From: Terriglobia bacterium
GTDB lineage: Bacteria; Acidobacteriota; Terriglobia; UBA7540
DNA length: 58,889 nt
Reading direction: 5' to 3'
Assembly (NCBI GenBank): GCA_030037755.1
Contig: JASHQD010000092.1
Location: 1-58,889 of the forward strand
Under the pieces are notes generated by a model. The model saw only the letters and a list, made by a program, of their open reading frames with translations. It was not told where the DNA came from and ran no database searches. Position 1 is the stretch's first letter, and each line of letters begins with the position of its first letter. Shown in pieces: positions 35,956-48,091 of the stretch. The translations under genes were made by a program, and so were the position numbers.

Positions 35956-36387
35956 TTATCTGTGATCCGTGGCTTTGGAGGAGTTTCGGAGTGCGGGGGA
36001 AGTCTGCCTGGTGCTCGACTTGGGAGCCTCCGGCGTGGCCGCGACCGGCGCCGCGCTGTATTCCGTGCCGAGGTAGTTCACGATGGTTTGGACATCCGGC
36101 TCGCTGAGTTGCACGCCGTATACCGCGATCATCTTGCGGACTTCCGGCTCCCAATGCTTGGCATCGCCGCCGGGCTGCCGGACGATGTAATCCGTTGAGT
36201 GGCAAATAGCGCAGTTGCTCTCGACGACGTCGAGGCCTGGGCCCGGCTTTAAAGTGGCCACGGCGTTGTCGGGAGGCAGTTCGATGCTTTTGAGACTTGA
36301 CGGCGGCACCTGTGCCGCATTGTGAGTGCCGCCGGCGCCAGCCACCGCCAGTGCCAGAATTGCAAGAACCAACCAGGAAGTCTTCAT
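35956..36387 (-). CDS. sorB: c-type cytochrome, sulfite dehydrogenase SorB-like
   Basis: 143 residues from the ATG at 36387, with a signal peptide MKTSWLVLAILALAVAGAGG. One haem site is present in VVESNCAICHSTDYIVRQPG, followed by a distal region with EVRKMIAVYGVQLSEPDVQT. The CxxCH-x-DYI-x-QP pattern matches SorB, the electron acceptor of periplasmic sulfite dehydrogenase. It follows sorA by 28 nt. An Ala/Pro/Ser-rich tail ends the protein. Confidence 0.85.
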   Translation of the reverse strand: MKTSWLVLAILALAVAGAGGTHNAAQVPPSSLKSIELPPDNAVATLKPGPGLDVVESNCAICHSTDYIVRQPGGDAKHWEPEVRKMIAVYGVQLSEPDVQTIVNYLGTEYSAAPVAATPEAPKSSTRQTSPALRNSSKATDHR

Positions 36388-36415
36388 GCGTATTCTTGCC
36401 TTCACGCTCTTGCCT

Positions 36416-37696
36416 TCACGTTGCGACCAAGTCCACGTGTTCGACCGCATTGTAGAGGTACCCTGACGGATTCCACAGCGTTTCGAGCGGCTGCGAATCT
36501 CCGGCCTTGCTGACGGCGCGGACCATCAGCCGGCAGGTGCCGGGCTTCTTCGCGGTCCACCTGTAGGACCACACGCGGAACGAGTACGGCCCAAGATCCT
36601 CGTCCAAGGATGCCGAGACCCAGGTCCGGGCGTTGTCTTCTGAGACCAGAACCTCGCCGATGCCGTAGCCGCCGTCAAAAGCGACTCCCTTTACAGTCGT
36701 GGCGCGTCCCACGCGGACGCGGGATCCGTTTGCCGGCACGGCAATCACCGATCTCACTTTCATGCGATTGATCGGAACCGTGTGCGCCGGCTTCGTGCCG
36801 GCCTCGACGCAGCCGCAAGCGTTATCGGGGATGCGATAGGCCGTTTTCATCCAGTAGCCGTCGAAGGCGCGGTCAAGAATGCTGATCTCCGCGAGGTTCT
36901 TCACCCAATACGTCGAGTACCATCCGGGCACCACGAGGCGCGCCGGAAAGCCGTTGAGCATGGGCAGCGGCTGGCCATTCATCTGGTAGGCAATCAGGAC
37001 GTTCGGGTCGTCCATGATGCGTCCGATGGCAAGGCTCTTGACCACCTGCGGCACTGTAGCCGCCGCAGGCCGGTCGAGACCGCTGAACGTGACGTCCACG
37101 GCCGTGGACCGCACGCCGGCCGCCTTCAAGACGTCGGCCAGGCGCACGCCCACCCACTCCGCGTTGCCCATCGCTCCGTCGCCCCACTGTCCTCCGAAAG
37201 GATGCGGCGAGACGCGTCCCCGGCTGTTCCCTGAGCACTGCTGCACCGCCACGATTTTGGCCGCCTGGAACTTGCTCTTCAGGTCGTCCATCGAGAGTTC
37301 GAGGGGCGTGTCGACTTGTCCTGTGATCTTCAAGCGCCAGGTGGCCAGATCGATGGCCGTGGGGATGGGAAACACGTGATAACGCACGTAAAAGGCTTCG
37401 TTCGGCGTGATGGCCCGGTCGAAGTAACGGACCGGAGTTTCGAGCTGCGGCGGCCTTGACGTCAGCAGGATGAGATCGGTCTTCTCGGGATAGCGGACGA
37501 GCGGGCGGCCCGCCAGGAAGGGTGCCCCGGACTGGACCGCGGTTTGGGCGTCATCGGCTTCCCACGACCACGCTCCGGCCACGTAAGTCCCCGTCAAGGC
37601 GTAAGTTGAGACCGCGCCGAGTGAGGCCAACAGCGAGCGGCGCGAAATGGCCGCGCGGGTTTCGGTGGTTCCCGGGACAGCGTCAGGTCGTTTCAT
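36416..37696 (-). CDS. sorA: Sulfite dehydrogenase, molybdopterin subunit (SorA-like)
   Basis: 426 residues from the ATG at 37696. A twin-arginine signal (AISRRSLLASLGAVSTYALT) marks Tat export. The molybdenum-ligating cysteine is C154 in VAVQQCSGNSRGRVSPHPFG. The C-terminal Mo-co dimerisation domain ends ETLWNPSGYLYNAVEHVDLV. It oxidises sulfite to sulfate in the periplasm and passes electrons to the adjacent cytochrome. It lies at the end of the encapsulin/cysteine gene run on the same strand. Confidence 0.92.
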   Translation of the reverse strand: MKRPDAVPGTTETRAAISRRSLLASLGAVSTYALTGTYVAGAWSWEADDAQTAVQSGAPFLAGRPLVRYPEKTDLILLTSRPPQLETPVRYFDRAITPNEAFYVRYHVFPIPTAIDLATWRLKITGQVDTPLELSMDDLKSKFQAAKIVAVQQCSGNSRGRVSPHPFGGQWGDGAMGNAEWVGVRLADVLKAAGVRSTAVDVTFSGLDRPAAATVPQVVKSLAIGRIMDDPNVLIAYQMNGQPLPMLNGFPARLVVPGWYSTYWVKNLAEISILDRAFDGYWMKTAYRIPDNACGCVEAGTKPAHTVPINRMKVRSVIAVPANGSRVRVGRATTVKGVAFDGGYGIGEVLVSEDNARTWVSASLDEDLGPYSFRVWSYRWTAKKPGTCRLMVRAVSKAGDSQPLETLWNPSGYLYNAVEHVDLVAT

Positions 37697-37789
37697 CAAG
37701 GCTTTCAGGAATACCTGAGAAAGTCTAGTGGATAAGTAGGCTATCTGCATTCAGAGTGCCTGTCAAGTCCCTGTGTAGGTCGTCTCCGT

Positions 37790-38053: not shown

Positions 38054-39001
38054 TCATATTCCGGCGCCCGCAGCTTTGAAAACGCCCAGAGATTCCGGCG
38101 ACCCATTGTGAATGAGGAGTTCAGGGTCCTTCACCACCACCTTGCTGTACGGCTCCACCGAATGGGTCAACCAGACGTTGCCACCGACGACACTGTGATG
38201 CCCAACGCGAGTCTGTCCTCCAAGAATTGTCGCGTTCGGATAGACCGTGACGTAGTCCTCGAGGTCCGGGTGGCGCTTGTTTGCCTGGCCGCGGCGCAGA
38301 TGCGCGTATTCGTCTTTCATCAGCGGATTGAAAGCGCCCAGGGTCACGCCGTGATAAAGCGTGACTCTGTTCCCGATGGTGGCGGTTTCTCCGATCACAA
38401 CGCCGGTGCCGTGATCGATGAAGAACGATTCGCCGATTCTGGCGCCGGGATTGATATCGATCCCGGTATGGCTGTGAGCCACTTCGGTCATCATGCGCGG
38501 AATAAAGGGCACTTCCAGAAGGTAGAAGCAGTGCGCCAGCCGTTGTACGGTGATCGCTTCAATGGAAGGATAGCTGAGCAGCACGACTTCGATCCCGGCT
38601 GCAGCGGGATCGTTGCCAAATGCAGCGTCGGTATCTGTCGCGAGCAGCCGGGCGAGATCGGGCAGCTTCTCGAGCGCTGCTGCCACCAGTTCCCGGGCGG
38701 TCTTCTCAATCCGGGCGGGAACACGCTTGCCCTGGCAATGGCTCTGGAAACGGACGGCACGGCAGACCTGCTCCGTCAGCAGCCGCTCGATGTCCTTGAG
38801 ATAGCGCCGCGCTTGACGAGGAAAGTTGCTGCCGGCGTCGCTGTGGTAGAAGAGCGGGAACAGTCCCTCGACGTAACGGCGGCAGATCTCTTGGACCGTC
38901 GAGCGGCTGGGCAACTCGAACGACCTGTCTCCTCCGCGGAGGTTCGCGCCCAGCGCCTTGCCGAAGGTCAGGGAGAGGGCATTCATCTTTTGAGAGTCCA
39001 T
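38054..39001 (-). CDS. cysE: Serine O-acetyltransferase (SrpH-like)
   Basis: 315 residues. The left-handed beta-helix acetyltransferase domain is evident: AHSHTGIDINPGARIGESFF, then IDHGTGVVIGETATIGNRVT, LYHGVTLGAF, and NATILGGQTRVGHHSVVGGN. The N-terminal helical part is long, as in the EpsC/SrpH type rather than E. coli CysE (273). It makes O-acetylserine for the cysK product. GAGGGGAGG precedes the ATG. In Synechococcus the srpG-srpH-srpI set pairs these enzymes with an encapsulin, as found here. Confidence 0.95.
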   Translation of the reverse strand: MDSQKMNALSLTFGKALGANLRGGDRSFELPSRSTVQEICRRYVEGLFPLFYHSDAGSNFPRQARRYLKDIERLLTEQVCRAVRFQSHCQGKRVPARIEKTARELVAAALEKLPDLARLLATDTDAAFGNDPAAAGIEVVLLSYPSIEAITVQRLAHCFYLLEVPFIPRMMTEVAHSHTGIDINPGARIGESFFIDHGTGVVIGETATIGNRVTLYHGVTLGAFNPLMKDEYAHLRRGQANKRHPDLEDYVTVYPNATILGGQTRVGHHSVVGGNVWLTHSVEPYSKVVVKDPELLIHNGSPESLGVFKAAGAGI

Positions 39002-39083: not shown

Positions 39084-40130
39084 TCAAGCCAGACCTTCAA
39101 ACAGAACCGTGGAGAGATAACGCTCCCCGGAATCGGGCAGCACGGTTACGATCGTCTTGCCGGCGAACTGGTCCTCTTTAGCGACGCGGATGGCGACGGC
39201 AGCTGCGGCTCCGCAGGAGATGCCTGACAGGATGCCTTCTTCGCGGGTCAGCCGGCGCGCGAATTCGATGGCTTCCTCGTTCGTTACCTGCTCAATCCTG
39301 TCCACCAGGGCGAGATCCAACACCTTGGGCACGAAGCCGGCACCGATGCCTTGGATCTTGTGCGGAGATGGCTGGAGAGGCAGGCCGGCCCGTTGTTGCG
39401 TCAACACCGGGCTTGCCGTGGGCTCGACCGCCACGGACACAATTGGTTTTCCTTTCGTTCCCTTGATGTACCGCGAAACGCCTGTGATTGTGCCTCCGGT
39501 TCCCACGCCCGAAACCAGCACGTCAATGGCTCCATCCGTGTCCTCCCAGATCTCGGGACCGGTGGTTCTCTCGTGGATGGCCGGGTTGGCAGGATTCTCG
39601 AACTGCTGGGGCAGAAAATAGTGCTGAGGGTCGGACTCGGCGATTTCCACCGCCTTGCGCACGGCTCCCGCCATGCCCTCCGGGCCCGGCGTCAGCACGA
39701 GCTTGGCGCCAAACGCCGCCAGCACGCGACGGCGCTCGATCGACATGGTCTCGGGCATGGTGAGCGTCAGGGGATAGCCGCGCGACGCCGCCACGAAGGC
39801 CAACGCAATACCCGTGTTACCGCTGGTGGGTTCCACAATCTCAATTCCCGGCTTCAGAATGCCCCGCTTTTCGGCGTCCCAGATCATCGAAGCGCCGATG
39901 CGGCACTTGACCGAATAGGCCGGATTGCGCCCTTCGATCTTGGCCAGCACGGTTGCCTTCAAACCCTGGGTCAGGCGATTCAGCCGCACCAACGGGGTTC
40001 TGCCGATGGTGAGGGAGTTGTCGGCGAAATACCGAGACTGGCGATCGGGACCAACGATCGGTCGGCTGCTGGTGCCTGAAGAAGTGGTCGATTCGGGGAT
40101 TTCTTCGATTAAAGCAGCTTTGGTTGACAT
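39084..40130 (-). CDS. cysK: Cysteine synthase A (SrpG-like)
   Basis: 348 residues, PLP fold type II. The cofactor Lys lies in [20 protein letters not shown], the substrate loop is [20 protein letters not shown], and [20 protein letters not shown] binds phosphate. A roughly 35-residue N-terminal extension precedes the usual start. It joins O-acetylserine and sulfide into cysteine, which the encapsulated desulfurase can then use. GAGGAG is 8 nt before the ATG. Confidence 0.95.
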
Positions 40131-40410
40131 CTCAATTTCTCCTCTCTGTGCGGCTGTCGGGCAGGCATCATCCAGTCTCCAGACCGAATAGACGCTGCTC
40201 CATCGGGCTTACCGGCGCTGCCCGGCCCGGGCTTGAACCCGCGGTCGTTACGGCATCTCTCCAAGCCTTGCGTCAGGCGCCCCATGGCCTTCGATCCGTT
40301 CCTCATGCAGTTACACCTCCCCGCCACCGGGGAAACCACGTGCCAGGCTTCTCTGTGGCCGGGATCTCGAGGGCGGCCCACGATTAGGCTGTCGCGGGCC
40401 GCCTCACGAA
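40131..40410 (-). other. 280-nt structured gap between the desulfurase and cysK
   Basis: A long gap inside an otherwise tight gene run. Just after the desulfurase stop an 8-bp perfect stem GGCGGCCC/GGGCCGCC (40372-40379 with 40396-40403) could form, without a T-run. Farther on, the minus strand has GCGGGTTCAAGCCCG, which looks like a tRNA T-arm. No complete cloverleaf and no known riboswitch was recognised, and the open frame across it is not protein-like. Confidence 0.4.
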
Positions 40411-42792
40411 TTAGAGTTTGCGGTGCCCTCGCCCGGCCTGGATGCGTAGCAAGGCCGCCACGAGTGCGTCGATGTCCTCGCGAGTGTTGTAGAGCGCCAG
40501 TGACGGCCGGACTGTGGCCTCTAATCCGAACCGCCGCAGGATCGGTTGAGCGCAGTGATGGCCGGCGCGTACTGCGATGCCCTCCTGATCGAGCGCCGAC
40601 CCCACATCCTCGGGGCGAGTCTCGTCGAGGACGAACGATATTACGCCCGCCTTTTCGGCTGCGGTCCCGATGATCCGGAGCCCGGGTACCGTCCCGAGGC
40701 CAGCAGTTGCGTAGTTGAGAAGGTCGTGCTCATGACGAGCCACGTTCTCGATGCCAACTTCGCTCAAATAATCCAGCGCGACGCCGAGACCGACGGCATC
40801 GGCGATATTGCCGGTGCCGGCCTCGAAGCGCGCCGGCGGAACGTTGTAGACGGTCTTCTCAAACGTGACGTCCAGAATCATGCCGCCGCCGCCCTGCCAC
40901 GGTGGCGTGTGTTCAAGGACGCTCTCTTTGCCGTAGACCACTCCGATTCCCGTGGGACCGAATATCTTGTGGCCCGAGAACACGAAGAAGTCGCAGTCGA
41001 GAGCCTGCACGTCCTCACGCATGTGCGCCGCGGACTGCGCGCCGTCCACGAGCACGAGCGCTCCGTAGCGGTGAGCCATTTCGATCATCTCGCGCGCCGG
41101 CGTGATGGTGCCGAGCGCGTTTGAAACGTGGCTCAAAGCCACGATGCGTGTCCGCGGTCCGAGAAGCCTCTCATATCGTTCGAGGATGATCTGGCCGCGG
41201 TCGTCGACAGGCGCCACCCGAAGGCAAGCGCCCTTTTCCGCACACAGCTGCTGCCAGGGAACAATGTTGGAATGGTGTTCGAGCCAGGTGATCACCACTT
41301 CGTCGCCCTTCTGGACGTTGCGGGCTCCCCAGCTCTTGGCCACCAGGTTGATGCCTTCCGTAGTGCCGCGCACGAAGATGATGTCTCGTGTGGAAGGGGC
41401 GTTGAGGAAACGGCGCACCTTCTCGCGCGCACTTTCGTAAGCATCGGTCGCTCGCGCCGCGAGAGCGTGGGCGGCGCGGTGGATGTTGGAGTTTTCGTGC
41501 CGGTAGAAGGATGAAAGGCGGTCGATCACCGCCTTGGGTTTTTGGGTTGTAGCGGCATTGTCAAGCCAGATCAGCGGTTTCCCGTGCACCTGCTCCTGCA
41601 GGATGGGAAAATCGCCGCGAATCAAATAGGGGTCGAAGGGCCGCTTCGATGTCCCAAGGTCCGGAACGACTTCGGGATGGACCTCGACAGACTCACTGGG
41701 ACTTCCGCCGGCCGCTGCAGGCGAGGCGGCAGCAGGAACTTCAGGCGCGCCCGGTGTTGTCACCGTGGAAGGTTGAATCGCGCCTGGGTCGCCGCCAGCG
41801 GACGGAGCCGGCGCGGAAGGCAGCGGCGGAATCCCCGGCGCCGATTGCGCACCGGGCACTCCGGGCAAGTTGAACATGTCGCCCGTTGACGGTAGTGAAG
41901 GCGCAGCACTGAACGGTCCGACGGGACCCGTCTCCGGAGTTGAAGCGGAGGACGAACCTGGCGCGCCGCTGCCGGGCAAGTCAGGGACCTCTGTTCTCAC
42001 CCCGGCCGGCGACGTGGCCTGGGCATGCAGGTCCGACTCCGATGGCAGGTCCGTTGATGCCGCTGAAGGCGAGGCCGGAGCGTCCGCCGGGTAGACCGCG
42101 CCCTCCGGGAACGAGAACAAGCCTCCTGCCGGCGGAATTACCGGAGGAATATTCAGAGGCGCGGCCCCTTGCGTGTCCAAAAAGTAGGCCGCCACTCCTA
42201 GCGACGGAGGTGCAGCGCCGGAGGGTACCGCGACCAGCGCTGTCGCCGCTCCCAGCGATGCCGGCAGTACCCGAAGCTCAGCCTCGGTCGGTGGCGCTGG
42301 TGGCGAAGGCAAGGAGGGACTGCCGGGAAGAGAATGCAGATCCGGCCCGCCCGGCACCGAGAGCAGCATCGCCGGGAAGACGGGTGGAGTATTCGGAGAC
42401 GACGGCCTGACGCCATCGAACGCGGTGACGGGTGAGCCGGGCGCCCCTTGCGACGGAACGGCGAAGGGGTTGGCAGGCGCCAGGCCCGCCGCTCCCGTGA
42501 AGGAAAGGGGCAGCGTGCGGCCTTCAGGCTCAGTTGCAGGTCCAGTCCCCGCACCCACGGGCGATTCGGCCGGCGGACCCTCTCCGTGGGCCGCCGAAAC
42601 GGGCGGCGATGACCACGGCAACGCCGCGAAGAACTCGTTCGCGAGCCTCGCGATCACGGCTGGATCTGGCGGCGCCGCCAGGCCAATCGGCAGGTTTCCC
42701 CCCGCGGGCGAAACTGGCGCAGTTGAGGTCAGTTCCGGCGTGAGCGCACCCGCCGCACCGGGATCACTTGTACTCATGGTATTGGCTGACAT
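40411..42792 (-). CDS. Encapsulin cargo: SufS-like cysteine desulfurase with giant disordered N-terminus
   Basis: 793 residues from the ATG at 42792, which has GGAGG 6 nt upstream. Residues 1 to about 383 are rich in Pro, Ala, Ser and Gly with almost no predicted fold. They hold one hydrophobic patch (AVIARLANEFFAALPWSSPP) and several LPG/IPP-type linear motifs. From about 384 a full type II desulfurase follows: PLIWLDNAATTQKPKAVIDR, PLP Lys609 in FVFSGHKIFGPTGIG, catalytic Cys747 in RAGHHCAQPILRRFG. This is the layout of the CyD cargo of family 2A encapsulins. It overlaps the shell gene by 29 nt. It should load sulfur from cysteine into the shell. Confidence 0.92.
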   Translation of the reverse strand: MSANTMSTSDPGAAGALTPELTSTAPVSPAGGNLPIGLAAPPDPAVIARLANEFFAALPWSSPPVSAAHGEGPPAESPVGAGTGPATEPEGRTLPLSFTGAAGLAPANPFAVPSQGAPGSPVTAFDGVRPSSPNTPPVFPAMLLSVPGGPDLHSLPGSPSLPSPPAPPTEAELRVLPASLGAATALVAVPSGAAPPSLGVAAYFLDTQGAAPLNIPPVIPPAGGLFSFPEGAVYPADAPASPSAASTDLPSESDLHAQATSPAGVRTEVPDLPGSGAPGSSSASTPETGPVGPFSAAPSLPSTGDMFNLPGVPGAQSAPGIPPLPSAPAPSAGGDPGAIQPSTVTTPGAPEVPAAASPAAAGGSPSESVEVHPEVVPDLGTSKRPFDPYLIRGDFPILQEQVHGKPLIWLDNAATTQKPKAVIDRLSSFYRHENSNIHRAAHALAARATDAYESAREKVRRFLNAPSTRDIIFVRGTTEGINLVAKSWGARNVQKGDEVVITWLEHHSNIVPWQQLCAEKGACLRVAPVDDRGQIILERYERLLGPRTRIVALSHVSNALGTITPAREMIEMAHRYGALVLVDGAQSAAHMREDVQALDCDFFVFSGHKIFGPTGIGVVYGKESVLEHTPPWQGGGGMILDVTFEKTVYNVPPARFEAGTGNIADAVGLGVALDYLSEVGIENVARHEHDLLNYATAGLGTVPGLRIIGTAAEKAGVISFVLDETRPEDVGSALDQEGIAVRAGHHCAQPILRRFGLEATVRPSLALYNTREDIDALVAALLRIQAGRGHRKL

Positions 42793-43690
42793 CGACATCC
42801 TCCAAGACTCCGATTGCATCTTCCGTGAGGACCGCGATCGAGCAATACAGTGAAATCAGATAAGAGGCAATCGCCTTGTGGTCGATCCCCATGAAGCGGA
42901 CCGAGAGGCTCGGCGACACTTCGCCTGGCAAACCGGGCTGGAAGAGCCCGACGACACCCTGCTTGCTCTCACCTGTCCGCAGCAGCAGGATGCTGGTCTT
43001 CTCTTTCTTGATGGGCAGCTTGTCACAGGGCACCAGCGGGACACCCCGCCAGGTCAGGAAGGGCGAACCGAAGAGCGTGGCGGTCGGAGGCGGCACGCCG
43101 CGGTACGTACACTCGCGTCCGAAGGCGGCAATGGCGCGCGGATGCGCAAGGAAGAACGCGGGCTCTTTCCACACCGTGGCAATCAATTCATCCAGATCGT
43201 CCGGCGTGGGGCCGCCCTTTCTGGTCTTGATATGCATATCCGCTGACACGTTGTTAAGGAGCCCGTATTCCTTGTTGTTGACGAGTTCCCGCTCCTGGCG
43301 CTCCTTGATCTTCTCAATGATCAGGCGCAGTTGCTCGCGGATCTGATCGTGAGGGCTGCGGTAAAGGTCGGAAATGCGGGTGTGCACGTCGAGCGTGGTG
43401 GTCACCGCGCTCAGCGTGTACTCACGCGGCTTCTCTTCATAATCGACGTATATCTCAGGTAGTAAAACTTCCTCGCCAGGCGCGCACTCGACGGTGCGGG
43501 TCCCTGGCGCCGTTGGCTTCACCTTGTTGACCCGATACTTGCCGGCTTCCACGGGTACCCAGGGCAGGAACGTGATCAGCCAGCGCGGCGTGATCTGCTC
43601 CATCATGGGTACAGTCTTGGTGACGACAGCGAGTTGCTGTGCACCTTCCACGCCCAGTGTGTGGCGGGTCGGTGTTGTCTCTTCTGGCAT
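42764..43690 (-). CDS. srpI: Family 2A encapsulin shell protein (SrpI-like)
   Basis: 308 residues from the ATG at 43690, with AAGGAG about 8 nt upstream. It has the HK97-fold family 2A sequence pattern: LGVEGAQQLAVVTKTVPMME, QITPRWLITFLPWVPVEAGK, VLLPEIYVDYEEKPREYTLS, AVTTTLDVHTRISDLYRSPH, QERELVNNKEYGLLNNVSAD and SLSVRFMGIDHKAIASYLIS. These shells self-assemble from one protein and package a cysteine desulfurase; elemental sulfur storage has been shown for related systems. The desulfurase gene follows directly. The frame is open upstream, but residues before 43690 are not conserved in type. Confidence 0.93.
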   Translation of the reverse strand: MPEETTPTRHTLGVEGAQQLAVVTKTVPMMEQITPRWLITFLPWVPVEAGKYRVNKVKPTAPGTRTVECAPGEEVLLPEIYVDYEEKPREYTLSAVTTTLDVHTRISDLYRSPHDQIREQLRLIIEKIKERQERELVNNKEYGLLNNVSADMHIKTRKGGPTPDDLDELIATVWKEPAFFLAHPRAIAAFGRECTYRGVPPPTATLFGSPFLTWRGVPLVPCDKLPIKKEKTSILLLRTGESKQGVVGLFQPGLPGEVSPSLSVRFMGIDHKAIASYLISLYCSIAVLTEDAIGVLEDVDVSQYHEYK

Positions 43691-45843: not shown

Positions 45844-46317
45844 TTATGGATTAGCCGCGAAATTCCGCGGATCGTCTTTCGAGTTGACATATTCCAGGCC
45901 GAGCGGACCGATCGCCGTCACCTGCGTGACGTACTCGCCGGATTTTGCCCAGTGGAAGTGGGAGGTATTGCCCGGCAGAATGATCGCCGCACCGGGTGGG
46001 TACGCCTCCAGCTTATCGGCATCGAATTGATCGCCCAAGCCGACGTAGAAGACGCCGGAAATTACGGTGTAAATGCGGTCCTCGGGGTGCCGGTGAGGCA
46101 TCAGTTTCACGCCACGAGGCACTTTGACCCTGACCATATACGGTCCTTGCTCCGAGGGGTTGCCAACCAGGACCGCCAGGCGTGCCTCCGGTGGGAACGC
46201 CGCGAAAGCCTTCCACTCAATGTCTTCGGCCAGGATGGCTCGGAACGTCGCCTGACCCGGTTGATGACGACCCGCTGCTTCGTTGAGAGCTTGAGGCTCG
46301 CGCACTCGTTGTGACAT
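45844..46317 (-). CDS. Cupin-domain protein
   Basis: 157 residues from the ATG at 46317 with AGAGGTG upstream. The cupin motifs are GVKLMPHRHPEDRIYTVISG, with a His-x-His and following acidic residue, and a second block PGNTSHFHWAKSGEYVTQVT. It probably binds a metal in one barrel. The substrate is unknown. A 160-bp gap separates it from the acyl-CoA synthetase. Confidence 0.82.
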   Translation of the reverse strand: MSQRVREPQALNEAAGRHQPGQATFRAILAEDIEWKAFAAFPPEARLAVLVGNPSEQGPYMVRVKVPRGVKLMPHRHPEDRIYTVISGVFYVGLGDQFDADKLEAYPPGAAIILPGNTSHFHWAKSGEYVTQVTAIGPLGLEYVNSKDDPRNFAANP

Positions 46318-46477
46318 AGGCACCTCTTTCTTGTCAGGCTCTCGGCAAGCCCGCCAAATTCCGGCAATAGTTCTGGGATACACCGCGCCGGATCGAACGA
46401 GCAGATCTCCATTCGGATAGCGGTTTCGGATCCCCAATTGAGCCGACGGCACGCTTCTCGCCAGAGGCTTTACTCGC

Positions 46478-48091
46478 TCACGCTGTTTCAATCTGCGCCG
46501 CCTTCTCCAGGCCCAATCTTTCGATCTCCATCTGTCGGATCACGTACTTCTGGACCTTTCCGGTGACCGTCATCGGGAACGATTCGACGAAGCGGATATG
46601 CTGCGGAATCTTCAGATGCGCGATCCGCCCGCGGCAGAATTCGCGAATCTCATCCTCCGTTGCGTTCTCGCCGCTCTTCAGCCTGATCCAGGCCGCCACG
46701 GTCTCGCCCAGCTTCTCGTCCGGCACGCCGACCACCTGGACATCGGAGATCTTCGGGTGCGCGTACAAAAACTCTTCGACTTCGCGCGGATAAATGTTCT
46801 CGCCGCCGCGGATGATCATGTCCTTCAGCCGGCCCGTGATGCGGAAATACCCATCGGGCCGCATGGCGGCGAGATCGCCGGTGTGTAGCCAGCCCTCGCT
46901 GTCGATGGCGCGATCCGTGGCTTCCGGGTCCTGGTCGTAGCCCTTCATCACCATGTAGCCTCGCGCGCACAATTCGCCCTGCTCGCCCACGGGCGCGGTG
47001 CTGCCGTCAACGGTGACGATCTTCACCTCCGTCTCGGGGCAGGCGCGCCCGACGGTGGAGACGCGCCGGTCGAGCGGGTCTTCCACGTCCACCATGGTGA
47101 TCCCCGGCGACGACTCCGTCTGGCCATAGGCGATTGTCATCTGGGCGCAGTGCATGTCTTCGACCACGCGCTTCATGATTTCGATCGGGCAAGGCGCGCC
47201 CGCCATCAGCCCCGTCCGCAGGCTCGTGAGATCGAAGCGCGAGAATTCGGGATGCTGCAGCTCAGCGATGAACATGGTGGGCACGCCGTAGATCGCGGTG
47301 GCCCGCTCCTTCTCGATCGCCTGCAGCGTGGCGAGCGGATCGAAGGTTGGCGCAGGAAAGACCATGGCGGCGCCGGTCGTGATCGACGCCATGGTCCCGA
47401 TCACGCAGCCGAAACAGTGGTAAAGCGGCACCGCGATACAGATGCGGTCCTGTTCTGAAATGCGCATCCCGTTGGCCATGATGCGGCCGTTGTTGACGAG
47501 GTTATGGTGCGTGAGCAGCACGCCCTTGGGCGATCCCGTGGTTCCCGAGGTGTACTGAATGTTGATCACGTCCTCGCAATCGGTTGGACCCGGGCCGGCG
47601 TCGCGGCCTCCTGCAATCATGCGGTCCCATGACTCGTCGCCGAGGCAGATGACGTGGCGCAGAGCGGTGTCCTGGCCGCAGCTTGCTTCCTGCAGGACCG
47701 ATTTGTAATCGGCGCGCGCGTCGCAGGCACGCAGTACCAGCACCTTCATCCCCGATTTCTTCAGGACGTAGCGCAGTTCGTGGGCGCGATAGGCGGGGTT
47801 CACATTCACCTGCACAAGCCCAGCGCGCGCGCAGCCCAGTTGCAGATAGATCCATTCGGCGCAGTTCGTCGCCCACACACCCACGCGATCGCCGGGTTCG
47901 AGACCGAGGCCGATCAGCCCGCGCGCCGCACGCTCCACCTGTTCCACGAGGCCGGTCCACCTCAGTCGGACGTCTTGATGACGAACGACCAGCGCGTCGC
48001 GGTCCGGGAATTTGGCCGCCGTTTCGCACAGCACCTGATGCGTCGTCTTGCAGGCCAAGTCGAATTTGGGTCCGCGCGCGTAGCTGTCCAT
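46478..48091 (-). CDS. Acyl-CoA synthetase (AMP-binding family)
   Basis: 537 residues from the ATG at 48091 (MDSYARGPKFDLACKTTHQV); the upstream open frame is repeat DNA. The AMP-binding motif is NIQYTSGTTGSPKGVLLTHH. Other motifs are MTIAYGQTESSPG, GWLHTGDLAAMRPDGYFRIT and GRLKDMIIRGGENIYPREVE, with the C-terminal Lys in TVTGKVQKYVIRQ. It activates a fatty or related acid to its CoA ester. A palindromic repeat sits in its leader, so the ribosome-binding site is weak. Confidence 0.93.
   Translation of the reverse strand: MDSYARGPKFDLACKTTHQVLCETAAKFPDRDALVVRHQDVRLRWTGLVEQVERAARGLIGLGLEPGDRVGVWATNCAEWIYLQLGCARAGLVQVNVNPAYRAHELRYVLKKSGMKVLVLRACDARADYKSVLQEASCGQDTALRHVICLGDESWDRMIAGGRDAGPGPTDCEDVINIQYTSGTTGSPKGVLLTHHNLVNNGRIMANGMRISEQDRICIAVPLYHCFGCVIGTMASITTGAAMVFPAPTFDPLATLQAIEKERATAIYGVPTMFIAELQHPEFSRFDLTSLRTGLMAGAPCPIEIMKRVVEDMHCAQMTIAYGQTESSPGITMVDVEDPLDRRVSTVGRACPETEVKIVTVDGSTAPVGEQGELCARGYMVMKGYDQDPEATDRAIDSEGWLHTGDLAAMRPDGYFRITGRLKDMIIRGGENIYPREVEEFLYAHPKISDVQVVGVPDEKLGETVAAWIRLKSGENATEDEIREFCRGRIAHLKIPQHIRFVESFPMTVTGKVQKYVIRQMEIERLGLEKAAQIETA

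Follow-up and report, generated by a model that had tools for sequence, protein, structure and literature searches.

A predicted family 2A encapsulin locus with a cysteine desulfurase cargo and an adjoining cysK-SAT pair in a Bryobacterales-like acidobacterium

Family 2A sulfur encapsulins, protein shells of viral origin that enclose a sulfur-extracting enzyme, have been described since 2021, are known from 12 phyla and are covered by dedicated NCBI annotation models. The neighbours of srpI in Synechococcus elongatus are presumably cysK (srpG) and a serine O-acetyltransferase (SAT) gene (srpH), and Benisch et al. (2024) are reportedly to be credited with elemental sulfur storage in the encapsulin of Acinetobacter baumannii. 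In S. elongatus PCC 7942 (6x8m; Nichols 2021, PMC8049743, the main text of which does not use the names srpG and srpH), the shell encapsulates a desulfurase via the N-terminus of the cargo, and the system is induced by sulfate starvation. LARLANEFFS is the targeting motif of this cargo, while a second motif, AASPYYFLDG, is present in most, not all, of the cargo members (PMC8049743). A total of 1281 family 2A desulfurase operons have been listed, where SAT and rhodanese are the most enriched accessory genes (PMC8346489), and both PMC12407261 and PMC10960027 cite such encapsulins as storing sulfur.

The stretch of DNA analysed here (the window), a single contig of 58.9 kb, comes from a draft genome of 6.7 Mb that is 86% complete. 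As judged from sequence, the window carries an entire family 2A encapsulin locus (Table 1), whose host is a soil-type acidobacterium resembling Bryobacterales. The shell ORF matches the NCBIfam model NF041162 (encap_f2a) with 499 bits (cutoff 380; E 3e-150; model positions 2–295 of 295) and Pfam PF19307 (SrpI-like), the sole Pfam domain found in it, with 353 bits, and these scores exclude a chance match. The first-pass annotation had taken this 308-residue protein for a family 2A shell, an assignment borne out by the NF041162 score. At 432 bits the ORF also passes the cutoff of the family 2B model (400), but the 2A model outscores it, and a Pfam search of the shell found no cyclic-nucleotide-binding domain, the E-loop insertion separating 2B from 2A. 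The family 2B encapsulins 9bhu and 9bje probably share the HK97 core with the window shell and differ from it by this insertion, while the shells of family 2A align with it without any large insertion. Identity with family 2B is therefore rejected; the comparison of the two models, which had been suggested beforehand as a check, decides for 2A, and the gene is assigned to the family 2A shells.

The closest solved structures are SrpI of S. elongatus (6x8m, determined by cryo-EM), the A. baumannii family 2A encapsulin (8t6r) and Mycobacterium Mmp1 (8wol). The shell aligns with 6x8m at E 2.3e-133, where 198 of the 291 aligned residues are identical (68%), and with 8t6r at E 2.8e-130, and an HK97 fold of the shell is expected from its identity with the solved SrpI shell. 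No other family 2A shell gene was found in the assembly.

Encapsulins share the HK97 fold, and Foldseek gave weak fold matches to the capsids of T5 and of gene-transfer agents, which would suit a gene for a prophage capsid mistaken for an encapsulin. Such an origin is nevertheless extremely improbable, as the same search, made with a poor AF2 model of the shell (pLDDT 51.5; alignment of 25 sequences), ranks seven encapsulins, all with E of about 1e-18 or lower, far ahead of the top phage capsid (3e-3), with 6x8m in first rank (helped by 59% identity), and the neighbouring genes examined are metabolic, with no phage genes among them. The sequence scores, where SrpI and its relatives are the best matches, likewise refute a phage capsid. 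A best match to an unrelated phage capsid, named in the first-pass annotation as the result that would speak against it, was looked for, and encapsulins were found to rank first.

The phage collection contains two matches to the shell only, CAKLQH020000001.1 and CAKLQF020000001.1 (328 and 379 kb), both of which are Acinetobacter contigs named Acinetobacter phage MD-2021a. The region around the match, read in CAKLQH020000001.1 only, contains LysR regulators, transporters and a full SAT-shell-desulfurase cluster amid chromosomal-type genes. The MD-2021a records are probably host contigs deposited as phage.

The shell belongs to an 11-member clade of Acidobacteriota, in agreement with the acidobacterial origin proposed earlier, where the nearest member is from the Bryobacterales MAG bog_159 (PMVV01000409.1; locus L014; 87% identity), followed by the shells of Sulfotelmatobacter and other Terriglobales MAGs (80–81%). 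Of the sampled genomes, 12 of 297 from the phylum and 2 of 40 from the order have a shell. This distribution is patchy, in part because contigs are missing from draft MAGs.

Table 1. Features of the encapsulin locus and the adjoining cysK-SAT pair in the window.
Feature	Coordinates	Strand	Details
Family 2A encapsulin shell protein (SrpI-like)	42764..43690	-	308 aa; ATG at 43690, stop at 42764
14-nt gene overlap (CATGAGTACAAGTGA)	42764..42777	-	Desulfurase ATG inside the 3' end of the shell gene; same overlap in 53 of 80 loci
Cargo cysteine desulfurase	40411..42777	-	788 aa; SufS-type catalytic domain ~381-788; 380-residue disordered N-terminal domain
Cargo-targeting motif IARLANEFF	42628..42654	-	Desulfurase residues 42-50; inside predicted helix 39-52; matches published LARLANEFFS
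GVAAYFLDTQ	42169..42198	-	Desulfurase residues 194-203; imperfect counterpart of AASPYYFLDG, read from translation; resemblance only
Clade-restricted N-terminal repeat, copy 1 (PAGGLFSFPEGAVYP)	42088..42132	-	Pattern search of desulfurase
Clade-restricted N-terminal repeat, copy 2 (STGDMFNLPGVPGAQ)	41845..41889	-	Pattern search of desulfurase
Strong GC-rich hairpin, no T-run	40371..40403	-	Just 3' of the desulfurase stop, in the gap before cysK
Cysteine synthase CysK (srpG-like position)	39084..40130	-	TIGR01139, 456 bits (cutoff 351)
Serine O-acetyltransferase SAT (srpH-like position), long N-terminal form	38054..39001	-	TIGR01172, 137 bits

The next gene is identified from its sequence as the encapsulated cysteine desulfurase cargo of family 2A. 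It matches NF041166 (f2_encap_cargo1), the NCBI model for family 2A cargo, with 830 bits (cutoff 800) and TIGR01979 (SufS) with 570 bits, and the PLP lysine Lys604 (HK604) and the catalytic Cys742 do not vary across 15 aligned relatives. Residues 1–380 contain 20% proline and 17% alanine, and in the AF2 model residues 54–376 have pLDDT below 50, while an isolated helix is predicted at residues 39–52. The shell is thus followed directly by a desulfurase with a long disordered N-terminus, as had been noted from the sequence at the outset. The assembly contains a second SufS above the cutoff elsewhere in the genome, and it is therefore improbable that the cargo desulfurase alone fills the housekeeping role.

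This cargo resembles that of S. elongatus in its SufS-type catalytic domain and in its disordered N-terminus with a LARLANEFFS-type motif. It differs in the length of the N-terminal domain (380 residues versus 225 in S. elongatus), in possessing only an imperfect match to AASPYYFLDG (GVAAYFLDTQ, which does not match the YYFL-type motif pattern) together with extra LFSFP-type repeats, and in its acidobacterial rather than cyanobacterial host.

The repeats have the form (L/M)F(S/N)(F/L)P, often with a V-P-G-like tail, and can also be written (D/E)(L/M)FSFPGVPG; the window desulfurase contains two copies. The ten nearest acidobacterial cargos (L014–L022 and L102) contain one to three copies each (e.g. 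SDLFSFPGVPGVQ), as compared with about 0.02 expected in shuffled sequences, and a genome of the same family contains one copy and one near-miss. The pattern is absent from all other desulfurase N-termini of at least 100 residues in the compared set, and the 11 loci containing it form one shell clade (support 100/99). It may tentatively be regarded as a second, repeated shell- or cargo-binding element that evolved in the acidobacterial clade and replaces or supplements AASPYYFLDG, which would make loading multivalent and raise the density of cargo in the shell, although this is regarded as less likely than not. The LFSFPGVPG-like repeat seems to be unreported, as no mention of it was found in the available portions of the family 2A encapsulin literature.

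The desulfurase ATG is situated 14 nt before the end of the shell stop codon, which backs a start at 42777 rather than at 42819, the earliest ATG in the ORF. Of 80 unbroken loci sampled across several phyla, 53 have an in-frame ATG at precisely this point, a count on which the start-picking rule bears, as it favoured the 14-nt overlap position wherever present. The shell C-terminus in the relatives has the conserved form Y-[HY]-[ED]-Y-K, where the fourth-from-last codon creates the ATG if it ends in T. This codon is T-ending in 61 of 84 shell genes (38.7 expected from the codon usage of each gene), while two adjacent control codons are T-ending in 21 of 78 and 22 of 85 (36 and 39 expected), all these counts ignoring relatedness. 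We read this bias as a sign of selection for retaining the overlapping start, for which translational coupling would be the simplest reason. The conservation of the overlap and its codon bias seem to be a small unreported feature. The identity of shell and cargo, the targeting motif, the conserved active-site residues and the overlap are thus evidenced at the sequence level, and no observation speaks against the identity.

Two genes downstream of the desulfurase and on the same strand is the SAT gene, which scores below the TIGR01172 cutoff (211 bits) and is the best of three matches in the assembly, with cysK lying in between. The order of shell, desulfurase, cysK and SAT is therefore as the first-pass annotation gave it, while its placing of all four genes in one operon holds for the shell and desulfurase with their 14-nt overlap, and is tentative for cysK and SAT. 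A single operon is firm only for the first two genes, because a gap of 280 nt with a strong hairpin precedes cysK; the 111-nt stretch 40300–40410 (minus strand) has a fold z-score of -3.9, and the hairpin could be a processing or attenuation site. That cysK and SAT also belong to this operon is tentative, because the pair is likewise present in relatives without an encapsulin.

An orthologous cysK-SAT pair was found in seven shell-less genomes of the same family (CysK 79–86% and SAT 61–66% identical), and in the four of these whose ORFs were read it is near a ThiF/MoeB-like gene. The window CysK groups in the tree with those of the encapsulin-less relatives, while CysK of the Sulfotelmatobacter-type encapsulin loci L016 and L018 is at the same position and forms a separate clade. 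By sequence comparison, the cysK-SAT pair is thus, in this lineage, an ordinary pair for cysteine synthesis rather than an encapsulin-specific one, and the two acidobacterial lineages appear to have placed shell and desulfurase ahead of cysK-SAT pairs that are not orthologous but have the same gene order. The shell and desulfurase may be an acquired module lying beside an ordinary and functionally unlinked cysK-SAT pair, as the pairing in the seven encapsulin-less genomes, the patchy distribution within the order and the gap with its hairpin would suggest. This is considered doubtful, since SAT is present alongside the shell in 48 of 61 relatives' encapsulin loci of at least 10 kb across phyla, and a different cysK-SAT pair occupies the same place in Sulfotelmatobacter. 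The same two observations favour a functional link between shell-desulfurase and cysK-SAT.

The closest known locus is that of Bryobacterales MAG bog_159, which shares with the window 87% identity in the shell, 84% in the desulfurase domain and 89% in CysK, together with the 14-nt overlap and the repeat motif. However, its desulfurase N-terminus contains two copies of the LARLANEFF-type targeting motif, its CysK is about 1.4 kb after the desulfurase, and a SAT fragment is upstream of the shell. This fragment (positions 1–551) is in broken pieces at the start of the contig, with CysK at the other end, which may reflect an assembly or frameshift problem. The Acinetobacter locus of the phage-collection contig also contains an overlapping desulfurase gene and a SAT in the cluster, but has a GlpE-type rhodanese and the SAT upstream of the shell, whereas the window has its SAT downstream and no recognised rhodanese.

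Taken as a whole, the locus very probably encodes a family 2A compartment that is loaded with desulfurase by the N-terminus of the latter and holds a sulfur reserve, with SAT and CysK feeding cysteine. Sixty copies of the shell protein would form a small icosahedral compartment, and the desulfurase, which may be translationally coupled with the shell through the 14-nt overlap, would be loaded through its disordered N-terminus, mainly the IARLANEFF helix. Inside the shell the enzyme would draw sulfur from cysteine to yield alanine and sulfur, the latter being kept as a reserve by analogy with A. baumannii, and the neighbouring SAT and CysK would supply the cysteine. Assembly, loading and sulfur storage in this organism are thus expected from the described systems.

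The same compartment may instead serve to regulate the transfer of sulfur or to protect the desulfurase, where the shell would gate the entry of cysteine and deliver persulfide sulfur to a partner. Encapsulation raises the activity of the S. elongatus desulfurase about sevenfold (PMC8049743), and selective delivery to rhodanese has been proposed by Andreas and Giessen (PMC8346489), both of which would fit such a purpose. It is nevertheless regarded as unlikely, since a rhodanese was not recognised next to the window operon and storage is the role cited by later papers (PMC12407261 and PMC10960027). The genes examined around the operon include no recognised rhodanese or other sulfur acceptor, which counts against storage too. 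Storage of sulfur drawn from cysteine is the reading preferred here.

Directly downstream of SAT, on the minus strand (35956–37750), are genes for a SorA-like sulfite dehydrogenase and a small c-type cytochrome (CAICH), which together are SorAB-like and thus related to sulfur by theme; the SorA-like protein scores 530 bits against a model cutoff of 600. No SorA homologue was found within the available flanks of the other encapsulin loci, and close SorA orthologues occur in same-family genomes without an encapsulin match, so that SorA as a part of the encapsulin system is unsupported. The cysK-SAT placement in two acidobacterial lineages and the SorA-like gene beside SAT seem to be further small unreported features. 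Upstream of the shell gene, also on the minus strand, are a cytochrome P460 (44612–45280) and a cupin protein (45844–46491), and no link of either with the encapsulin was found in other encapsulin loci. A search for riboswitches gave a tRNA as the sole Rfam match in the window, sigma-70 promoter matches did not exceed the shuffled expectation, and no upstream DNA conserved with the closest relative, the locus of MAG bog_159, was found.

With this locus, a known family of sulfur compartments gains a well-supported member from a Bryobacterales-like host, and no new class of system is opened. The association with cysteine synthesis appears to have arisen two or more times, each time with another cysK-SAT pair, in support of a compartment that would draw on newly made cysteine. 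The start codon conserved in the overlap and the repeats specific to the clade may serve as small handles on the ratio of shell to cargo and on loading.
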